This document shows positions 5,580 through 42,522 of a stretch of 64,000 bases of DNA, one piece after another. Made by a program: the position numbers and the translations under genes. Below the pieces are notes generated by a model. It ran no database searches. It had not been told where the DNA came from and saw only the letters and a list, made by a program, of their open reading frames with translations. The number at the start of each line of letters is the position of its first letter. The first letter of the stretch is position 1. The stretch is from Massilia mucilaginosa. Its GTDB lineage: Bacteria; Pseudomonadota; Gammaproteobacteria; Burkholderiales; Burkholderiaceae_D. The stretch spans positions 62,001-126,000 of the forward strand of contig NZ_WHJH01000009.1 of the NCBI RefSeq assembly GCF_011682145.1, in the 5' to 3' direction.

Positions 5580-7600
5580 GCGCGCTCAAGCCAGCCAGCC
5601 GGGGCGGCCTGGCGCGCCTGGCCGCCCAGCTCCCGCGCGACAAGGCCGACACCCTGCTGCTGCTGGCGGCGGCGTTGATGGTGCTGGCGCCCCATGCCGG
5701 CCACCTGCCGCTGTGGGTGTCCGCCCTGTGCGGCCTGACCCTGCTGTGGCGCGCCGTGGCGACCCTGCGCGGCACGCGCATGCCCTCGGCCCTGCTGCTG
5801 CTGCCCTTGTCGATGGCGGCCATGGCGGGCGTGTTCATGAGCTACAAGACCCTGTTCGGACGCGATGCCGGGGTGGCCATGCTGGTGCTGCTGGTGGCCT
5901 TCAAGATGCTGGAGATGCACGCGCGGCGCGACCTGTTCGTGGTGATCTTCCTGTCGTTCTTCCTGGTGCTGACCAATTTCTTCTACTCGCAGAGCATGTT
6001 CACGGCCCTGATGATGATCGCCTCGATCATTGCGCTCCTGACCGCGCAGTTGTCGTTCCAGTTCACCGGCGCGGTGCCGCCGCTGGGCCGGCGCCTGTGG
6101 ATGGGCGCGCGCGTGTTCCTGATGGCCGCGCCGCTGGCGGTGCTGCTGTTCGTGCTGTTCCCGCGCATCCAGGGGCCGCTGTGGGGCATGCCGAGCGACG
6201 CCCAGGGCGGGCGCATGGGCCTGTCGAACAGCATGGCGCCGGGGAATATGTCGAACCTGGCGCAATCGGACGATCCGGTGTTCCAGGTGCGCTTTCTCGA
6301 TCCGCCGCCATCGAAGGCGCAGCTGTACTGGCGCGGCGTGGTGCTGGGCGAATTCGACGGGCGCACCTGGACCAAGGTGCGGCGCTCGCCGCGCAGCGCG
6401 CCCGAACGGATTTCGATGAAGATGCGCGGACCGGCGATCCGCTATCAGCTGACCCTGGAGCCGTCGTCCAACAACTGGCTGTTCGCGCTCGACCTGCCCG
6501 AGCGCCTGCCGGACCTGGAAGACAATACGGCGCGCGTCTCGAACGAGCTGGAACTGTTCGCCAACTACGCGCTCGACAAGCGCGTGCGCTACGACCTCAG
6601 TTCGCACATCGACTACAGCCTCGGCGCCGCCCCCGAACTGGTGGAGCGCTGGCGCTGGCTGGACCTGCCCGACGGCTTCAACCCGCAGGCGCTGCAAGCC
6701 GGCGCCGCCATCGGCCGCACGATGCCCGATCCGGAACAACGCGTCCGTTCGGTCCTGACCATGTTTACCGAGCAGCCGTTTTCGTACACGCTGCAGCCGC
6801 CGCTACTGGGGCGCAACTCGGTCGACGACTTCCTGTTCAAGACGCGCTCCGGCTTTTGCGAACATTACGCCAGCGCCTTCGTGGTGCTGATGCGCGCCGC
6901 CGGCGTGCCGGCGCGCGTGGTGATGGGCTACCAGGGCGGCGAATTCAATCCCATCGACGGCTTTTTGTCGGTGCGCCAGTCGGAAGCGCACGCCTGGGCC
7001 GAAGTCTGGATCGCCGAGCGCGGCTGGCTGCGGGTCGACCCGACCGGCGCGGTGGCGCCGGAACGGGTGCAGCGCGGCCTGGCGAGCGCGCTGACGCAAA
7101 ATCCGCCCGCCTTCGCCGGCCTGGGCGGGCTGCTCGGCTTGAGCGGCGAGCGCAACGCGCTGCTCGAACAGCTGCGCTTTCGCTTCGACGCGATCAACAA
7201 TGGCTGGAACCAGTGGGTGCTGAACTACACGCCGGACCGCCAGAGCGGCTTGCTCGACAGCCTCAAGCTCAGCCTGGCGCACTGGCGCACGCTCGCCGTC
7301 CTGGCCGCCATCGGGGCACTGTTGCTGGTGTGGCGCGCGCTACGGCTGCGGCGCGGGACAGACCCGGTCGATGCGCTATACTCGGCCCTGTGTCGAAGGA
7401 TGAGCCAGCTTGGCATGGCGCGCGCCGCCGACGAGGGTCCCAACGCCTACGCCGCCAGGCTCGCGCAAGGCACGCTGGCGCAGGACAAGATCGCTGCCGC
7501 CAAGCGCTTCCTGGCCCTCTACAGCGCCCACAAATACAGTGCCCGGCCGCCCGCTTCCGGGCTCGCTTCCACCCTGAAAAGTTTGCTGAACAACATTTAA
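5576..7600 (+). CDS. TgpA-like membrane transglutaminase (DUF3488)
   Basis: A 674-residue membrane protein. The first ~200 residues hold several transmembrane helices (DUF3488), then a periplasmic transglutaminase-like domain with the catalytic set Cys428 (RSGFCEHYASAF), His472 (SEAHAWAEVW) and Asp488 (RVDPTGA), a further helix near residue 570 and a C-terminal DUF4129-like tail. The layout matches TgpA of Pseudomonas aeruginosa. It overlaps the DUF58 gene by 4 bases and its TAA overlaps the ATG of mltB by 1, so the four genes probably form one envelope operon. The substrate is not known. Confidence 0.92.
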   Translation: MSALKPASRGGLARLAAQLPRDKADTLLLLAAALMVLAPHAGHLPLWVSALCGLTLLWRAVATLRGTRMPSALLLLPLSMAAMAGVFMSYKTLFGRDAGVAMLVLLVAFKMLEMHARRDLFVVIFLSFFLVLTNFFYSQSMFTALMMIASIIALLTAQLSFQFTGAVPPLGRRLWMGARVFLMAAPLAVLLFVLFPRIQGPLWGMPSDAQGGRMGLSNSMAPGNMSNLAQSDDPVFQVRFLDPPPSKAQLYWRGVVLGEFDGRTWTKVRRSPRSAPERISMKMRGPAIRYQLTLEPSSNNWLFALDLPERLPDLEDNTARVSNELELFANYALDKRVRYDLSSHIDYSLGAAPELVERWRWLDLPDGFNPQALQAGAAIGRTMPDPEQRVRSVLTMFTEQPFSYTLQPPLLGRNSVDDFLFKTRSGFCEHYASAFVVLMRAAGVPARVVMGYQGGEFNPIDGFLSVRQSEAHAWAEVWIAERGWLRVDPTGAVAPERVQRGLASALTQNPPAFAGLGGLLGLSGERNALLEQLRFRFDAINNGWNQWVLNYTPDRQSGLLDSLKLSLAHWRTLAVLAAIGALLLVWRALRLRRGTDPVDALYSALCRRMSQLGMARAADEGPNAYAARLAQGTLAQDKIAAAKRFLALYSAHKYSARPPASGLASTLKSLLNNI

Positions 7601-35568: not shown

Positions 35569-37370
35569 TCAACCCCTGAGCAGTATCTTTGTCAGCGCAG
35601 CGATATCCACCGGCTTCACCAGATGATGATCGAAGCCCGATGACTTGGCCAGCAAACGATCCTGTTCCTTGCCATACCCGGTCAGCGCGATCAGCTTGGC
35701 GGTATGCCTGCCAGGGGTAGCGCGCAGGCGGCGCGCCAGTTCGTAGCCATCCATCCCCAGCAAACCGATATCGAGGATAAACACATCGACCGGCTCCCGC
35801 GCCGCCAGGCGCAGGCCAGCGTCCCCATCGCCGACCACGCGCACCTGATACCCCTGGGCGCCGATCAGCGCCGCCAGCGACTGCGCGCCGTCGGCGGTTA
35901 TCGTCGACAATCATCACCCTCGGCAAGCTTGCCCCATGCAAAGGCGCAGCCTCAACGGCGCCAGCCAGCGCGCCGTCCTGCGCCGACGAGACAGCGCCCG
36001 GATCACCCCCGCCCGCCACCTCCAACAACGGCAAGCGGACAACAAAACTCGAACCCCTGCCGAGCCCATCACTGATCGCCTGCACGCTGCCCTGATGCAG
36101 CTCGACGATGCGCTTGACCAGCGCCAGCCCGACGCCCAGGCCGCCCTGGATGCGGTCGGGTGTGCGCTCTGCCTGGATAAACAAGTCGAACACATGCGGC
36201 AGCAGGCCGGCGTCGATCCCGATGCCATTGTCGGTGACCGTGATGCACGCCGCCCCGTCCTGCATCTGCAGGGACAAGGCGATCTACCCGCCCGGCGCCG
36301 TGTACTTGGCGGCATTGTTAAGCAGATTGACGATCGCCTGCACCAGGCGCGTCTTGTCGCCCTGCGCGAACAGGTGCTCCGGCGGCAGCGCCACCGTCAA
36401 ATGATGCCTGCGCGCCTCGATGCCCGGGCGCGCCTGCTCGACCGCGCTGTGCAGCGCCGCATGCAGATCGATCACCACGCGCTCGATCTGCACCAGGCCG
36501 CTGGTCACGCGCGACACATCGAGCAGATCATCGACCAGATTGGTCAGATGGCCGACCTGGCGCAAGATGATCTCGCCCGATTTTTGCACGCGCTGCGGAT
36601 CGGACTTGCCCAGGATGAGCAGCTGGGCCGCGCTGCTGATCGGCGCGAGCGGGTTGCGCAGCTCATGCGCCAGCATGGCCAGGAATTCATCCTTGCGCTG
36701 GCCGGCCTGGCGCAACGGCGGCGCCCGGCGCGGCGGCGCCCGGCGCGCACCACTCGCGCACCCCGTCCAGGGTAGCGGCGGCATGGTCGACGGTAGCGTA
36801 GCCGACCCTGCCGGCGCCGAGCGCCTCGCCGAGGATGGCGGCCGCCGCGTCCGCGATATCGTCGACTGCCTTGAGATCGCGCAAGGCGTTGGCCAGCGCG
36901 GCCAGCACATCGCGCAGCGAGCCCTTGAGCGACACATCGGCGCCGCTCACTTCCTCGGCCGAGTGGATGATGTAAAGAAGCGTGCCATCGGCATGCAGGA
37001 CCGGCATGTTGACCGGCTTCCAGTAGCGGGGCAGAAAGACGCTGCCGCCGGCTTCGATTGCCACGTCATAGCGTTGAATCTCCATCCTGTCCACGCAAGC
37101 GCCGGCAAGCACCCGTTGCAGCGATGCGCGCAGTTTGGCGACCCCGTCCGCAAGCGGATCCTGTGGATCGCCGGGAAACGCATCGAAAACATGCAAACCA
37201 AGAATATCCGACGCGACCCGCCCGACGATGCGCACATACGCCGCATTGGCCGCGAGCACGATCAGCGCCGCCGGCATGATGAGATAGGGCGTTGGAAGCG
37301 CCTGGAAGAATGGCCCGAAATCGAGCGGCGCCTGCCCGGCGTTGTGCGGGAATATCACGGGTTCATCCAT
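35569..37370 (-). pseudogene. Decayed hybrid sensor histidine kinase
   Basis: Remnant of a PAS-GAF-HisKA-HATPase-REC protein. The part from 37370 encodes a PAS domain (about the first 140 residues) and the beginning of a GAF domain. The frame then changes near a 15-base tandem duplication (36717-36746), and most of the GAF domain appears missing. The HisKA box KDEFLAMLAHELRNPLAP follows in another frame. A TAG at 36284-36286 interrupts the HATPase after AAKYTAPGG; the same frame continues with TVTDNGIGID and GGLGVGLALV. A one-base insertion just after IVDDN (near 35900) throws the REC domain out of frame; REC residues continue to the stop at 35569. Three lesions in 1.8 kb argue against a single sequencing error. 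It is divergent from blaI. Confidence 0.85.
36717..36746. repeat. 15-base tandem duplication at the kinase frame change
   Basis: GGCGGCGCCCGGCGC occurs twice in tandem, exactly where the GAF part ends and the HisKA part changes frame. It is a likely slippage or recombination scar. Confidence 0.7.
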
Positions 37371-37500
37371 TCACAATCCACTTCCACATCGTGCGCTGAG
37401 GGTTTCTGTCCGGACGCCATTTTACCAATCATGCGCTGCCTGACGGGGACTGTTGGCAGTGCGCGATGCGCTCGCCCAACGCCGAGCCGCATCATCGCGC

Positions 37501-37546
37501 TTGACGTTTATGCGACGGATGTCACATAATGGTGGCATTCGTCGCA
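37501..37546 (+). promoter_or_regulatory. blaI promoter with overlapping dyad operator
   Basis: TTGACG (37501-37506) and CATAAT (37525-37530) are separated by 18 bases, a good sigma-70 pair. A dyad TGCGACGGATG (37511-37521) / CATTCGTCGCA (37536-37546), with one mismatch in 11, is centred on the -10 box. A dimeric repressor bound there would block RNA polymerase. The blaI ATG follows at 37561. Confidence 0.65.
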
Positions 37547-37560
37547 CCTTTAAAGATCCC

Positions 37561-37944
37561 ATGGCCATTCCCTCCATTTCCGAACTGATCGTCCTCAAAT
37601 CCCTGTGGCGGCAGCAGCCCCTGAGCGCGCGCGAAATCCACCAGCAGGTCGAAGCCGAACTTGGCTGGTCCTACTCCTCGACGCGCAAGACCCTCGAACG
37701 CATGCTGGAAAAGGGGTCGATCATCCAGTCCACCCTGCACGGCGTGCAAGTCTACGAAGCCGTGCTGGAAAAAGTCGGCACCCTCGCCTCCTTCGCGCAC
37801 GACTTCGGCAAACGGGTGATGGAGATGGACGCGCCTTTGCCGGTCACCATGTTCACCGGCAGCAAGCTCGTCGATGACGCCGAGCTCACCCGGCTCGAAC
37901 AACTGCTGCACGACTGGCCCGACGACAACGGTGACGACAAATGA
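37561..37944 (+). CDS. blaI: BlaI/MecI-family transcriptional repressor
   Basis: A 127-residue winged-helix repressor. The N-terminal domain (about 1-80) contains SELIVLKSLWRQQPLSAREI and the recognition segment WSYSSTRKTLERMLEKG, matching the conserved '...STVKTLLNRL-KKG' of BlaI/MecI. The C-terminal dimer part is PVTMFTGSKLVDDAELTRLE, where BlaI has its protease-sensitive site next to a Phe. The start at 37561 is chosen over the frame opening at 37453, which would run through the promoter. It overlaps the blaR-like gene by 4 bases (ATGA). It probably represses its own operon at the 37511-37546 dyad until the partner protease acts. Confidence 0.9.
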   Translation: MAIPSISELIVLKSLWRQQPLSAREIHQQVEAELGWSYSSTRKTLERMLEKGSIIQSTLHGVQVYEAVLEKVGTLASFAHDFGKRVMEMDAPLPVTMFTGSKLVDDAELTRLEQLLHDWPDDNGDDK

Positions 37945-39779
37945 GCCCGGCCGAGCTCTTGATGTCGCGCTTCCTGCTGGCCAGCGGCGGTTGCCTCGCT
38001 GCCGGCCTGGCCGTGTGGGCGGTCACCACGCTGTGCCGGCGCAGGCTGCCCGATTTTGCCGCGCAGCGCTCCCTGTGGCTGCTGAGCCAGATCACGATCG
38101 TGGCGGCCTTCCTGGTGATCCTGCTGCCGCACAGCGAACGGCTGCGCATCATTCCGCAGATCGACCTGGAGAGTGCCACGCAAAGCGGCGTGGCCAGCGC
38201 CAACACCACGGCAACCAAGGCGCCGGCCACCGGCACCCCGGCCAGCAGCGGCGCGCCGGCCAGCGAGACAAGCTGGCTGGCCAGCGGCGCGCAAGCCTGG
38301 CTGCTGATCTACCTGCTCGGGCTGGGCTATGCGATCGGCAAGCTGGTGCACGCGCGGCGCATGCTCAACGGCCTGGCCGCAGCCGGATCGCGGATGGACG
38401 CGCGCCACCCGCACGACGGCTTTGCCGGTTCCGCGCAAGCGGCCCGCACACCGGACGTGATCGAAGTCGACGCCCCCATCTCGCCCATGCTGTTCGGCCT
38501 CATCAAACCGCGCCTGCTGCTGCCGCGCCACCTGCGCAGCCTGGCGCCGGTGCAGCAGCAATTGATCGTCGCCCACGAACTGACCCACCTGCGGCGCCAC
38601 GACCTGCAATGGATGAGCGCCGGCGTGCTGCTCCAGACCCTGCTCTGGTTCAACCCCTTCATGCGCCTGCTGCGGGTGAACCTGTCCTGGGCGCAAGAAC
38701 TCGGCTGCGACCGCGACGTGTTGCGCGGACGGCCGCAGCTCCAGCGCAAGGCCTACGCGGCGGCCCTGGTGGCGCAACTGCGCTTGCAGCACCACACGGT
38801 CGCGACGGCGCTGGCCTTCGGCGGTGTCAGCGAGCGCAGCGTGGCGGCGCGCATCGCGCTGATCCGCGAACCGGCCAGCGCCCCGCGTCGCCCGTGGGCA
38901 CGCTGCGCCGCGCTCGCCAGTCTGGCCGGCATCGTGCTGGGCAGCCTTGCCTTCCAGCCAGCGCTGGCCTGGCGCATCGACGCCGCCCCGCATGCGGCAC
39001 AGAAGGCATCGCCGGCCAGCGCCAGCACATCCTCCGTCGTGCTGAGCTGCACGGCAATGATCGACGCCGCCAGCGGCCAGCGGCTGGTGCACGAAGGCCA
39101 GTGCGACGAGCGCGTGACGCCGGCGTCGACCTTCAACATTGCCGTCAGCCTGATGGGCTACGACAGCGGCTTTTTGCGCGACGAACACGCCCCGGTACTG
39201 GCGTTCAAGGAGGGCTATGCCGACTGGAACGATTCCTGGCGCGCGAGCACCGACCCGACCAGCTGGATGCGCAATTCCACCGTGTGGTACGCCCAGCAAG
39301 TCAGCGCCCACCTTGGCGCGGCGCAATTTCAGCGCTACATCAATGACTTTGACTACGGTAACCGCGAGGTCCTGGGCGAGGCCGGCGACGACAATGCCCT
39401 CCCGCTGTCGTGGATCAGTTCGACCCTGGCCATCTCGCCCGTCGAACAGCTTGCCTTCCTGCGCAAAGTGGTCAACCGCGAGCTCGGGCTGGCGCCGGCG
39501 GCGTACGACATGACCGCCCGCATCACCCGGCTCGACAAGCTGCACAACGGCTGGGAAATCCACGGCAAGACCGGCACCTCGGCGCCGGTCAGCGTCGCCG
39601 GACCCGATGACGCCCAGCACGAATACGGCTGGTTTGTCGGCTGGGCGAGCAAGGGCGGCCGCACCGTGATCTTCGCGCGCCTGGTGCTCGATCCGCGCCA
39701 GGAAGGGCACGCCGCCGGCACCAGAACCAAAAAAGCCTTCCTGCGCGACCTGCCCGCCCGCCTGGACGCGCTCAATTAA
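37941..39779 (+). CDS. BlaR1-like M56 metalloprotease with class D beta-lactamase-type sensor
   Basis: A 612-residue membrane sensor-transducer, near the size of staphylococcal BlaR1 (601). Transmembrane helices lie at about 8-30, 43-60, 115-135, 222-242 and 315-338. The M56 zinc protease motif HELTH is at 212-216 with a probable third ligand Glu253 (AQELGCDRD). Residues about 350-612 are a complete class D (OXA-type) penicillin-binding domain: S396-T-F-N399, S446-T-V448, Y472-G-N474 and K543-T-G545. In OXA enzymes and BlaR1 the first motif is S-x-x-K; here the Lys is Asn (codon AAC). Acylation at Ser396 with very poor deacylation would suit a sensor, but loss of the base could also slow acylation. 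It is coupled to blaI; the B3 gene follows 23 bases on. Confidence 0.9.
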   Translation: MSPAELLMSRFLLASGGCLAAGLAVWAVTTLCRRRLPDFAAQRSLWLLSQITIVAAFLVILLPHSERLRIIPQIDLESATQSGVASANTTATKAPATGTPASSGAPASETSWLASGAQAWLLIYLLGLGYAIGKLVHARRMLNGLAAAGSRMDARHPHDGFAGSAQAARTPDVIEVDAPISPMLFGLIKPRLLLPRHLRSLAPVQQQLIVAHELTHLRRHDLQWMSAGVLLQTLLWFNPFMRLLRVNLSWAQELGCDRDVLRGRPQLQRKAYAAALVAQLRLQHHTVATALAFGGVSERSVAARIALIREPASAPRRPWARCAALASLAGIVLGSLAFQPALAWRIDAAPHAAQKASPASASTSSVVLSCTAMIDAASGQRLVHEGQCDERVTPASTFNIAVSLMGYDSGFLRDEHAPVLAFKEGYADWNDSWRASTDPTSWMRNSTVWYAQQVSAHLGAAQFQRYINDFDYGNREVLGEAGDDNALPLSWISSTLAISPVEQLAFLRKVVNRELGLAPAAYDMTARITRLDKLHNGWEIHGKTGTSAPVSVAGPDDAQHEYGWFVGWASKGGRTVIFARLVLDPRQEGHAAGTRTKKAFLRDLPARLDALN

Positions 39780-39802
39780 ACCCACCTCATCACGGAGACA
39801 AC

Positions 39803-40663
39803 ATGAAACACCTGCTCATCGCCACCCTGCTGGCCGCCTCGCCGCTCACGCCAGCGCTGGGCGCCGACTGGAACGACCCGCAAGAACCGTTCGCCCTCTA
39901 CGGCAACACCTACTACGTCGGCGTGCGCGGCCTGAGCTCGGTGCTGATCACCTCCCCTGCCGGACACATCCTGATTGACGGCGGCAGTCCCAAGTCGGCC
40001 GTCCAGATCGTGCAGCACATCGGCCAGCTGGGATTCAAGATCGCGGACGTGAAATACATTCTCAATTCGCACGAGCACTTCGACCATGCCGGCGGCATTG
40101 CCGAACTGCAGCGTCTGTCGGGCGCCACCGTGCTGGCCAGCGTGCACGGCGAGCAAGTCCTGCGCACCGGCGCGACCAGCAAGGGCGACCCGCAATACAC
40201 CAACCTGCCGCCAACGCAAGCCCCCGTGGCCAAGACGCGCGCCGTCAAGGATGGCGAGATCGTCAAGCTCGGCCCGCTGTCGGTCAGCGCGCACTACACG
40301 CCGGGCCACACGCAGGGCGGCACCAGCTGGACCTGGCGCTCGTCCGAGGGGGGCAAGACGGCCGCCATGGTGTATGCCGACAGCCTGAACGCGATCAGCG
40401 CCGGCCCCTTCCGCTACAGTGCCAGCAAGACCTACCCGCGGGCGCGCGCCGAGCTCGAAAAGTCGATCGCCACCGTTGCCGCGTTCGATTGCGATGTGCT
40501 GGTGTCGGCCCATCCGGAAGGCAGCGGCCTGTGGGAGCGCCTGGCGCAACAGCCCACGCTGGGCAACGCCGCCTTTATCGACCGCAACGCCTGCCGCGCT
40601 TACGCCGGCGCTGCGCGTGACCGGCTGGCAAGCAAGCTGGCCGCCGAAGCCGCTCAAAAGTAA
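39803..40663 (+). CDS. Subclass B3 metallo-beta-lactamase
   Basis: A 286-residue periplasmic zinc beta-lactamase. The signal peptide ends near residue 20 (ALG-A). All six B3 zinc ligands are present: His90, His92, Asp94 and His95 in NSHEHFDHAGG (BBL 116, 118, 120, 121), His169 in TPGHTQGG (BBL 196) and His237 in SAHPEGS (BBL 263). Position BBL 116 is His, not Gln as in GOB enzymes. It resembles THIN-B of Janthinobacterium and other environmental B3 enzymes, so hydrolysis of penicillins, cephalosporins and carbapenems is expected. GGAG lies about 6 bases before the ATG. It lies 23 bases after the sensor gene and 44 before the class C gene. Confidence 0.95.
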   Translation: MKHLLIATLLAASPLTPALGADWNDPQEPFALYGNTYYVGVRGLSSVLITSPAGHILIDGGSPKSAVQIVQHIGQLGFKIADVKYILNSHEHFDHAGGIAELQRLSGATVLASVHGEQVLRTGATSKGDPQYTNLPPTQAPVAKTRAVKDGEIVKLGPLSVSAHYTPGHTQGGTSWTWRSSEGGKTAAMVYADSLNAISAGPFRYSASKTYPRARAELEKSIATVAAFDCDVLVSAHPEGSGLWERLAQQPTLGNAAFIDRNACRAYAGAARDRLASKLAAEAAQK

Positions 40664-40707
40664 ACCCCTTCGCAGCGACCACCGCCATCAGAAAAGGAAG
40701 CACCGCC

Positions 40708-41871
40708 TTGTCCACTTCGCCGAAAAAATCCACCAGCATCATCACCCTGGCCCTCATCGCGGCATGCTGCGCGCCCCTGGCCAGCCAGGCTGCCGACGAC
40801 AGCACGCGCCTGCGCGCCATGGTCGACCAGGCCATCCGCCCCATCATGGCCGAGCACGAGGTACCGGGCATGGCGGTGGCCGTGACGGTGGGCGGCAAGG
40901 CCTATTTCTTCAATTACGGCCTGGCTTCGATCAAGGACCAGACGCCGGTGAGCGAGACGACGCTGTTCGAACTGGGCTCGATCAGCAAGACCTTGACGGC
41001 AACGCTGGCCTCGTACGCGCAGGCGAGCGGCAAACTGTCGCTGGACGCGCATCCGAGCGCCTACATGGCGCAGCTGAAAGGCAGCGACATCGACAAGGCA
41101 AGCGTGCTCAACCTGGGAACCTACACCGCCGGCGGCTTGCCGCTGCAGTTTCCCGAAGCCGTCAAGGACGCGCACATGGCCGACTACTTCCGGCAATGGC
41201 AAGCGCAAGCGGCGCCCGGCACGCAGCGCCGCTATTCCAACCCCAGCCTGGGCCTGTTCGGGCATGTGACCGCGCTGGCCCTGGGCAGCGATTTTGACGA
41301 GGCGATGAACCAGCTGTTCGCGCAACTTGGCCTGAGCAGCAGCTACCTGCGCGTGCCGCCGGGCGCGGTGGCCAACCAGGCCTGGGGCTACGACGAGGAC
41401 AAGCAGGCACGCCGCATGGACCCGGGCGTACTGGCGGCGCCAACCTACGGCGTGCATTCGAGCAGCGCTGACATGATCGGCTTCATGCAGGTCAACATCG
41501 CACCGGAGCAGCTGGACGAGCCGGCGCGGCGCGCGGTGCAAGGCACGCATGTCGGCTACTTCAAGGTGGGGGCGATGGTGCAGGGCCTCGGCTGGGAGCA
41601 ATATCCCTGGCCCGTCAGCCTCAAGCGCCTGCAGGCCGGCAACTCGCGCAGCATGATCACCCAAGCCAACGCCGCCAGGCGCATCGGCGCGCCCAAGGCG
41701 CCGTCCGCGCCGACCCTGTTCAACAAGACCGGTTCCACGGGCGGATTCGGCAACTACGTTGCATTCGTTCCGGCGAAGAAGATTGCCGTCGTGATCCTGG
41801 CCAACAAGAACTATCCGATTCCGGACCGCATCAAAGCCGGACACGCGATCCTGGAGCAGCTTGCGCCATAA
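40708..41871 (+). CDS. Class C (AmpC-type) serine beta-lactamase
   Basis: A 387-residue serine beta-lactamase. The signal peptide runs to about residue 29 (ASQA). The class C catalytic set is complete: Ser91-I-S-Lys94 (ELGSISKTLTA), Tyr176-S-Asn178 (RRYSNPSLG) and Lys340-T-Gly342 (FNKTGSTGGFG). The start is a TTG at 40708 with GGAAG about 8 bases upstream, which may lower translation. It lies 44 bases behind the B3 gene with no terminator between. There is no ampR beside it, the usual regulator of ampC; the BlaI/BlaR pair upstream is the likely replacement. Confidence 0.94.
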   Translation: MSTSPKKSTSIITLALIAACCAPLASQAADDSTRLRAMVDQAIRPIMAEHEVPGMAVAVTVGGKAYFFNYGLASIKDQTPVSETTLFELGSISKTLTATLASYAQASGKLSLDAHPSAYMAQLKGSDIDKASVLNLGTYTAGGLPLQFPEAVKDAHMADYFRQWQAQAAPGTQRRYSNPSLGLFGHVTALALGSDFDEAMNQLFAQLGLSSSYLRVPPGAVANQAWGYDEDKQARRMDPGVLAAPTYGVHSSSADMIGFMQVNIAPEQLDEPARRAVQGTHVGYFKVGAMVQGLGWEQYPWPVSLKRLQAGNSRSMITQANAARRIGAPKAPSAPTLFNKTGSTGGFGNYVAFVPAKKIAVVILANKNYPIPDRIKAGHAILEQLAP

Positions 41872-42036
41872 GGCATGATCAGGCCGGGGCGGCGACGCCG
41901 TTCCCGGCCGACCCCTGGCACTTTGCACACGAGGACATGGTGTTCGATGCGCGCCGGACAGCGTCGCGCCGGCTTACAACAAGCTCATGCGCGGGAACGG
42001 ATTTTAGCGGCGGGGACGATTGGCACGACACGGTTT

Positions 42037-42522
42037 TCAGGCGGCGGACGGACATGGCCGGCCCTGTTCCCAGCACTGCAATACATGCAAGGCACTGGCG
42101 GCATGGCTGCCCCAATGAATACTGAAGTGCTCGCGCCAATAAAACACGGCGGCATCGGGATTGCCGCCATCGAGCAGATTGAGGCCGTGCTTGAGGTTAC
42201 GCCAGATATCGGCCAGGTCGTCGGCCAGGTCGCCGATCATCATTTCGCCGCACCCGGCATCGAGCGTATTGGCGCTCTGCGAGTAGTAATTGACCGGAAG
42301 CACTCCGAAGCGCGCGAACATCGCTTGCCACGCGTCATACGACACCCCGGCTGCCTCATCGCCCCAGTCGCAATCGCGCAGCGGCAGATCGAGCGCTTGC
42401 GCATACAAGCGCGCCAGGTGCCGGCGGGCGATCGGCACCTGCGCCTCGCCCGGCTGCAAATCGCCTTCGGCCCACTGGCAAAAATCGCGGGCCGATTGCG
42501 CAAATACCATGCTGCTGTCCAT
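42037..42522 (-). CDS. DUF5063 domain-containing protein
   Basis: A 161-residue cytoplasmic protein. The pattern GDLADDLADIWRNLKHGLNLLDGG near the middle (about 95-120) and the N-terminal DFCQWAEG match the DUF5063 family. Function is unknown; members occur scattered in Gram-negative genomes. It is rich in Trp and acidic residues. It ends 165 bases from ampC and is convergent with it, so it is not part of the bla operon. Confidence 0.75.
   Translation of the reverse strand: MDSSMVFAQSARDFCQWAEGDLQPGEAQVPIARRHLARLYAQALDLPLRDCDWGDEAAGVSYDAWQAMFARFGVLPVNYYSQSANTLDAGCGEMMIGDLADDLADIWRNLKHGLNLLDGGNPDAAVFYWREHFSIHWGSHAASALHVLQCWEQGRPCPSAA

Follow-up and report, generated by a model that had tools for sequence, protein, structure and literature searches.

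A BlaI-type operon of Massilia mucilaginosa with a predicted beta-lactam sensor that lacks the class D catalytic lysine

How might a soil-type Gram-negative bacterium place a zinc and a serine beta-lactamase under a single switch? This question is raised by a four-gene operon of Massilia mucilaginosa, which lies in a stretch of 64,000 nucleotides that we call the window (assembly GCF_011682145.1, contig NZ_WHJH01000009.1, positions 62,001 to 126,000). The operon encodes a BlaI-type repressor, a sensor-protease in which an M56 peptidase is fused to a class D beta-lactamase-like (OXA) domain, a subclass B3 metallo-beta-lactamase and a class C beta-lactamase. We propose, with a probability of roughly 70%, that the operon responds to beta-lactams, being repressed by BlaI and released by an M56-OXA sensor that is acylated without hydrolysis. 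At the position of the catalytic lysine of class D enzymes this sensor has an asparagine, a loss that an earlier note on this DNA had overlooked.

The four genes lie on the forward strand between 37561 and 41871, and their open reading frame (ORF) coordinates give intergenic gaps of -4, 23 and 44 bases, just as the earlier note had read them; Pfam and NCBIfam scans likewise agree with its naming of the products as BlaI, a BlaR1-like sensor-protease, a B3 enzyme and a class C enzyme. The gene blaI (37561..37944) encodes a winged-helix repressor of the BlaI/MecI type with 127 aa (Penicillinase_R, 63.8 bits; cut-off 22.6). The 612-aa fusion sensor-protease follows (37941..39779; Peptidase_M56 and class D-type Transpeptidase domains), then a 286-aa subclass B3 metallo-beta-lactamase (39803..40663; NF033105, 326.3 bits, cut-off 240) with the zinc-ligand motifs HEHFDH, GHTQGG and SAHPEG, and a 387-aa class C beta-lactamase with a TTG start and SISK, YSN and KTG motifs (40708..41871; NF033085, 498.6 bits, cut-off 415). 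The sole promoter-like site in the region examined is of the sigma-70 type, TTGACG-18 bp-CATAAT (37501..37530, forward strand; 10 of 12 matches, shuffles averaging 0.5), and a scan of the forward strand from 37300 to 42100 found no terminator-like site, in keeping with the note's reading of one promoter in front and no terminator between the genes. By this anatomy the four-gene operon is real and stands behind one promoter, and we predict that its genes are co-transcribed.

Within the sensor-protease, the M56 region (37995..38858; PF05569, 119.9 bits, cut-off 31) contains the motif HELTH at residues 212-216, and H212, E213 and H216 are invariant in all 29 rows of an alignment that joins the window protein to 28 full-length relatives collected from 245 genomes of the family. 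The class D beta-lactamase-like domain (residues 370-606; 39048..39758), assigned from its NCBIfam class D score and from structure comparison, sits at the C terminus beyond the last transmembrane helix. An AlphaFold model of the whole sensor was of moderate quality (pLDDT 71, pTM 0.45) and was used only for domain fold and helix order; structure comparison with this model hardly probed the M56 part. The closest solved structures to the sensor domain are those of the OXA-42/OXA-57 group from Burkholderia, together with 6whl and 6huh, and identity over the sensor model is 49% for 6ni0 and 51% for 9hpu. The OXA-42/OXA-57 proteins, the nearest solved relatives, are however free enzymes with an intact SxxK motif. 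The sensor domain scores 305 bits on the NCBIfam class D model, above the cut-off of 280, and annotation pipelines may therefore list the product of 37941-39779 among resistance enzymes, which it probably is not.

Class D enzymes are recognised by SxxK, S-x-V, K-T/S-G and an omega-loop tryptophan. In the sensor the lysine is replaced and the other motifs are present: the SxxK motif reads S-T-F-N, with Asn399 (codon AAC, 39135..39137, placed by reading frame and alignments) at the position of the catalytic lysine. We followed this residue through a contig scan for related loci, which took the best 80 of 188 candidates, so that more distant fusions may exist. The scan gave 79 loci, comprising 62 M56-OXA fusions (two of them, L084 and L086, from the same genome) and 17 OXA loci without M56; with the window added there are 63 fusions. 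Both scan patterns omit the SxxK lysine position. The 62 loci and the 28 relatives overlap and are never summed, and our main counts come from the 62 loci plus the window. Asparagine occupies the lysine position in 58 of the 63 fusions (hereafter Asn-type) and lysine in the other five (Lys-type: L116, L117, L121, L122 and L126); in the set of 28 relatives plus the window, asparagine is found at the same position in 27 of 29. All 42 OXA domains without M56, which are free or joined to another lactamase (41 from scanned loci, one from a Caballeronia plasmid), have lysine. Among the Asn-type sensors the codon is AAC in 35 and AAT in 23, and the use of both indicates that the asparagine is conserved as an amino acid of the protein. 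Its presence in 58 loci with two codons rules out an error of sequencing or assembly, and the conservation of asparagine and of the remaining motifs across these loci rules out a decayed sensor. When we compared the 58 Asn-type sensors with 34 enzymes, a comparison that omits seven distant class D domains, only residues 399, 402 and 451 separated the two groups by our thresholds. None of the 58 has lost Ser396, Ser446, Tyr-Gly-Asn, Trp491 or Lys-Thr-Gly.

The five Lys-type fusions have lost a different residue. In an alignment with OXA-10 and OXA-1, which includes the seven distant class D domains, the column of OXA-10 Trp154 (Trp491 of the window sensor; codon TGG, 39411..39413) holds tryptophan in every one of the 58 Asn-type sensors and of the 41 lactamase domains checked, and glutamate in all five Lys-type fusions; the column covered 41 of the 42 OXA domains without M56, and L103, whose motif is STFK, was left out of both residue counts. 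Each of the 63 fusions thus lacks either the lysine or the tryptophan but not both; the lactamase domains checked all retain the two residues. According to the available part of one study, Trp154 of OXA-10 stabilises the carboxylated lysine (PMC10235803), and the available part of another describes this lysine as the general base of class D enzymes for both acylation and deacylation (PMC9293634). The latter also describes the K84D mutant of OXA-24/40 as deacylation-deficient, with acyl-enzymes captured with imipenem and meropenem, and titles in the PDB name an OXA-10 K70C-ampicillin acyl-enzyme and OXA-1 K70D with oxacillin. Lysine mutants of class D enzymes can thus still form acyl-enzymes, and since its other active-site motifs are intact, the sensor domain should be acylated by beta-lactams yet not turn them over. 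In BlaR1, the available part of a further study reports, the lysine (K392) decarboxylates on acylation, a step critical for the stable acyl complex (PMC5957439); Asn399 would hard-wire what BlaR1 achieves by this decarboxylation.

The promoter does contain the dyad that had been described there, with arms at 37511-37525 and 37532-37546 that are 87% complementary, but comparison with relatives suggests that the part most likely to function is a 16-bp operator located between the -35 and -10 elements, together with a downstream half-site. This predicted BlaI operator, TGCGACGGATGTCACA (37511..37526), touches the -10 element and has one mismatch to TGYGACANNTGTCRCA, a palindrome that we recognised by eye, along with the half-site following it, in the upstream stretches of relatives; it is conserved upstream of the operon in relatives and of a paralogous BlaI operon. 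The half-site, CGTCGCA (37540..37546), makes up the second dyad arm with 37532-37539, and similar half-sites occur in relatives. A BlaI-family repressor is encoded in the same locus in 43 of the 63 fusions, and within 150 bp upstream of blaI in these 43 loci the operator is exact in 28 and has one mismatch in 13 (41 of 43); none of 860 base-shuffled control sequences came below two mismatches. Another 20 loci show no blaI in the stretch; an exact operator lies in the 600 bp before the sensor gene in 19 of them, and the last, L125, is cut by a contig end.

The operator also recurs away from the sensor genes. The 29 fusion-bearing genomes hold 57 exact sites, as against 0 for the reversed control. 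Fifty of the sites are at fusion operons (21) or at second BlaI operons of an M56-M23 type (29, two of which belong to L228, a degraded copy without an M56 match). Four lie before a PgeF-like gene that is followed by a B3 lactamase gene whose product is 78-100% identical to that of L222. Further exact sites stand directly before a gene for a lone B3 lactamase 67% identical to the window's (L224, genome G040), directly before one for a lone class C lactamase 62% identical (L226, genome G089), and before a TonB-receptor gene (L225). G089 has both output kinds of the window, a B3 gene next to the sensor (L045) and a class C gene at another place, both with the same operator type. In the genome of the window (G000), sites with at most one mismatch are found at the window operon, at the paralogous operon on contig C333 and on contig C401, where nothing nearby matches the proteins encoded by these operons; once two mismatches are allowed, the pattern gives 49 sites in this genome and its reversed control 61, so only sites with 0-1 mismatch are informative. 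The PgeF-like (Cu-oxidase_4) plus B3 loci are L220-L223 (genomes G155, G177, G228 and G067), away from the sensor operon; three of their four B3 lactamases were scanned, and all three belong to the SMB-1 family, above the cut-off.

Three genomes whose sensor loci lack blaI (G188, G199 and G166) have one BlaI each, encoded in a BlaI-M56-M23 operon elsewhere. Since BlaI is found only in that other operon, it must act in trans there if the operator is used, and from the spread of sites we consider that BlaI probably acts in trans on unlinked operator copies as well. The repressor sequences also fit cleavage by an M56 protease: 68 of 69 aligned BlaI rows have phenylalanine at the position of the cleavage-site phenylalanine in our reference, the BlaI of an S. 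equorum plasmid, with methionine before it in 67. We take this position to be the known cleavage site of S. aureus BlaI.

The genes that accompany the module are exchanged from locus to locus. Judged from flanks of up to 4 kb on each side, 56 of the 63 loci have a lactamase gene close to the module. Serine enzymes only are present as class C (25 loci), class D (7), a C-D fusion (6), a divergent C-D fusion (3) or a divergent class C gene (2); outputs with B3 are B3 followed by class D (5) or by class C (4), a B3-D fusion (3) or B3 alone (1). The earlier note had proposed one sensor over zinc and serine lactamases. Comparative genomics upholds the functional link, with the two kinds paired in 12 of the 63 loci, while the exact B3 and class C pair, present in 4 of 63, is one output among several that are exchanged. 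Looked for in related genomes, the window's gene order of blaI, sensor, B3 and class C does recur, in 4 of the 63 fusion loci, and this recurrence, along with the 56 loci that have some lactamase gene nearby, exceeds what chance would give. The B3-D fusions (L113, L115 and L119, at about 5717-7333) are single ORFs of 537-539 aa from Massilia arenae, Massilia sp. HP4 and M. timonae that encode a subclass B3 and a class D lactamase as one protein, downstream of the M56-OXA sensor; we found no description of such a zinc-serine fusion lactamase in the literature searched. Four of the Lys-type M56-OXA fusions (L117, L121, L122 and L126) are followed by a TonB receptor (OMP_b-brl_3) and no lactamase. 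We considered the absence of a lactamase as a hallmark of the Lys type, four of five having none nearby, and ruled it out: L116 has the lysine together with B3 and class D genes, and in G040, the genome of L122, a B3 lactamase gene some 117 kb away is preceded by an exact operator.

The second BlaI operon carries a different sensor. All 25 M56-only loci with a match (27 were given, two of them without one) encode BlaI, an M56 protein with a fused M23 peptidase domain, and a TonB receptor, and six of seven further loci have the same makeup, the exception being L228. The copy in G000 (L064, on C333) and its 24 counterparts possibly encode a cell-wall sensor, with an operator type in common with the lactam sensor. 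There is also a third BlaI-type operon (L227 in G148, L228 in G181) that has two operator copies, with OXA-like pieces downstream in both cases. In a tree of M56 regions, in which L182 was poorly aligned, the 25 M56-M23 proteins split from the 63 fusions with full support, and the fusions group together (100/100) with the Lys-type rows inside the Asn-type. A tree without distant class D and BlaR1 rows also places the 63 fusions in one clade (99/98), with the Lys-type joining the M. aurea group (83/91); with those rows included, Asn-type (85/88) and Lys-type (99/99) fusions form separate groups.

From the operon anatomy, domain fusion, residue losses, operator conservation and output exchange read in these sequences we infer the following course from acylation to antibiotic range. 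BlaI on its promoter-overlapping operator would keep the operon off. The M56-OXA protein would be anchored in the inner membrane and expose its class D-like domain to the periplasm, where a beta-lactam would acylate Ser396. Because Asn399 replaces the general-base lysine, the acyl-enzyme could not be hydrolysed and the signal would persist. The acylated sensor would then activate the M56 protease, which would cleave BlaI or start its removal, and the two chemically unrelated lactamases would be made together with BlaI and the sensor. In sister loci the same module would drive other lactamases, with BlaI probably acting on unlinked operators too.

Several observations weigh against this model. 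Seven of the 63 fusion loci have no lactamase in the stretch examined, and four of these (L117, L121, L122 and L126) have a TonB-receptor gene directly downstream; another of the seven is L125, with its contig end. In the window itself the operator departs from the palindrome at one position, exact sites are missing from G144 and G212, and the operator is also found at M56-M23/TonB-receptor operons, hence is not lactamase-specific. The BlaI cleavage site is placed by alignment only, and the trees conflict on whether the Lys-type fusions nest within the Asn-type group. Acylation without the lysine may also be slow, given that the available part of PMC9293634 describes OXA-24/40 K84D with ertapenem as an unproductive, unacylated complex. 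The same complex would suit a sensor whose OXA domain is not acylated at all, with beta-lactams or peptidoglycan fragments binding reversibly and the M56 protein sensing wall damage, as the M23 paralog may. The role of the SxxK lysine in acylation, and not in deacylation alone, points the same way, as do the paralogous M56 proteins, which carry a wall peptidase-type M23 domain instead of OXA and have BlaI and the operator type in common with the fusions. We nevertheless regard a non-acylated sensor as unlikely: the retention of Ser396, Ser446, YGN and KTG throughout the Asn-type would be hard to explain without an acyl bond, and other class D lysine mutants do form acyl-enzymes.

It is highly improbable that the sensor is an ordinary or decayed membrane-anchored class D lactamase whose BlaI/M56 part has another role. 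Its class D score passes the cut-off, and a published table has such genes as class D lactamases (PMC5967600); against this, the general base is gone in 58 of 63 fusions and its tryptophan partner in the other five, the asparagine has been conserved long-term, and decay would not have kept the other motifs. A standard BlaR1/BlaI system from Gram-positives, with the usual lysine-decarboxylation switch, would account for the overall architecture and the partner, which are alike, but is scarcely credible here, as the lysine is absent, valine replaces the polar residue of the BlaR1 S-x-N motif, and sequence identity of the domain is 49-53% with 6ni0, OXA-57 and a Caballeronia plasmid OXA as against 21-25% with staphylococcal BlaR1. 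Residues and similarity likewise argue against an import of BlaR1 from Gram-positives. There is, lastly, very little to suggest that the two lactamases are expressed mainly from promoters of their own with the BlaI module a mere neighbour. Weak promoters might fit into the gaps of 23 and 44 bases, but no second promoter-like site was found in the region, lactamase genes of differing classes accompany the module in 56 of 63 loci, and copies of the operator also precede B3 and class C lactamase genes that are not linked to the module.

A sensor acylated without hydrolysis would work much as BlaR1/BlaI and MecR1/MecI do in Staphylococcus and Bacillus. These systems are alike in having a BlaI-type repressor, an M56 protease that ends in a class D-like domain outside the membrane, and an adjoining lactamase gene, and in BlaR1/BlaI systems the operator lies at the promoter, as here. 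Their operator, however, is of the TACA/TGTA type and differs in sequence from ours; their outputs are class A BlaZ or PBP2a, and here B3, C, D or fusions; and the window family has SxxN for SxxK, S-x-V/L for S-x-N, and a sensor domain much closer to Gram-negative class D enzymes. Two staphylococcal BlaR1 sequences keep both the lysine and the tryptophan and have asparagine as the third residue of motif 2 (S-V-N in S. aureus), a residue that is Val448 in the window and V in 40, L in 17 and A in 1 of the Asn-type sensors. In Gram-negatives, inducible class C lactamase is the province of AmpR-controlled ampC, in which AmpR, a LysR-type regulator, senses muropeptides; here the regulator is BlaI and the drug itself is the likely ligand. 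A 2012 paper reportedly, by its title, deals with an amino acid position at the crossroads between BlaR1 and class D enzymes. The available part of PMC9045261 names a polar third residue of motif 2 as a BlaR feature. By its sequence the operon is predicted to be BlaR1-like in its working and outside BlaR1 in the strict sense, because two defining residues, the SxxK lysine and the S-x-N polar residue, are absent. The label of BlaR1-like acyl-sensor thus stands as far as an M56 protein with a class D-like domain goes and does not extend to a standard BlaR1 sensor.

Fusions of this kind have been reported before. In Janthinobacterium, Massilia and Duganella, genes for LRA-13-like C-D lactamases have been described with class D genes that have BlaR1/MecR1 domains upstream of them, and in Massilia with a regulator gene beside the M56-class D gene (PMC5967600), and the available main text of PMC9045261 classes 14 Oxalobacteraceae representatives with a class D site and an M56 domain as BlaR homologs. 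Both describe the same kind of M56-class D fusion as ours, so the earlier note's remark that it knew of no described system with this exact composition needs narrowing, and what we did not find in the literature searched is the lysine loss and the operator. Neither PMC5967600 nor the available main text of PMC9045261 mentions the lost lysine, the Trp-to-Glu alternative, the operator, the output range or the M56-M23 paralog, and the words 'STFN' and 'asparagine' are absent from the PMC9045261 main text. Our literature searches also found no test of beta-lactam induction, and those for Massilia, Janthinobacterium or Duganella with BlaR1/BlaI returned next to no literature. The M56-class D fusion is already known; its chemistry and wiring appear to be new.

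These data suggest a broader account, which we hold about as readily as we doubt it, in which the Oxalobacteraceae built their own BlaR1-type switch. A local class D lactamase would have been fused to an M56/BlaI module and its carboxylated-lysine catalyst broken, at the lysine in most lineages and at its tryptophan partner in one, Gram-positive BlaR1 having come to the same end via a third position. The result would be a CO2-independent suicide sensor in a system with exchangeable sensors (OXA or M23) and outputs (B3, C, D, C-D and B3-D fusions, and TonB receptors), wired in trans by one shared operator. How a lactamase is converted into a sensor is a long-standing question that has rested mostly on staphylococcal BlaR1. 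A large natural family of sensors beside their enzyme relatives, converted via other residues, makes the sensing role of the carboxylated lysine testable with natural proteins. The operon further suggests that Gram-negatives, for which textbooks describe control of the AmpR type, may also sense the drug directly and have zinc and serine lactamases on one switch.

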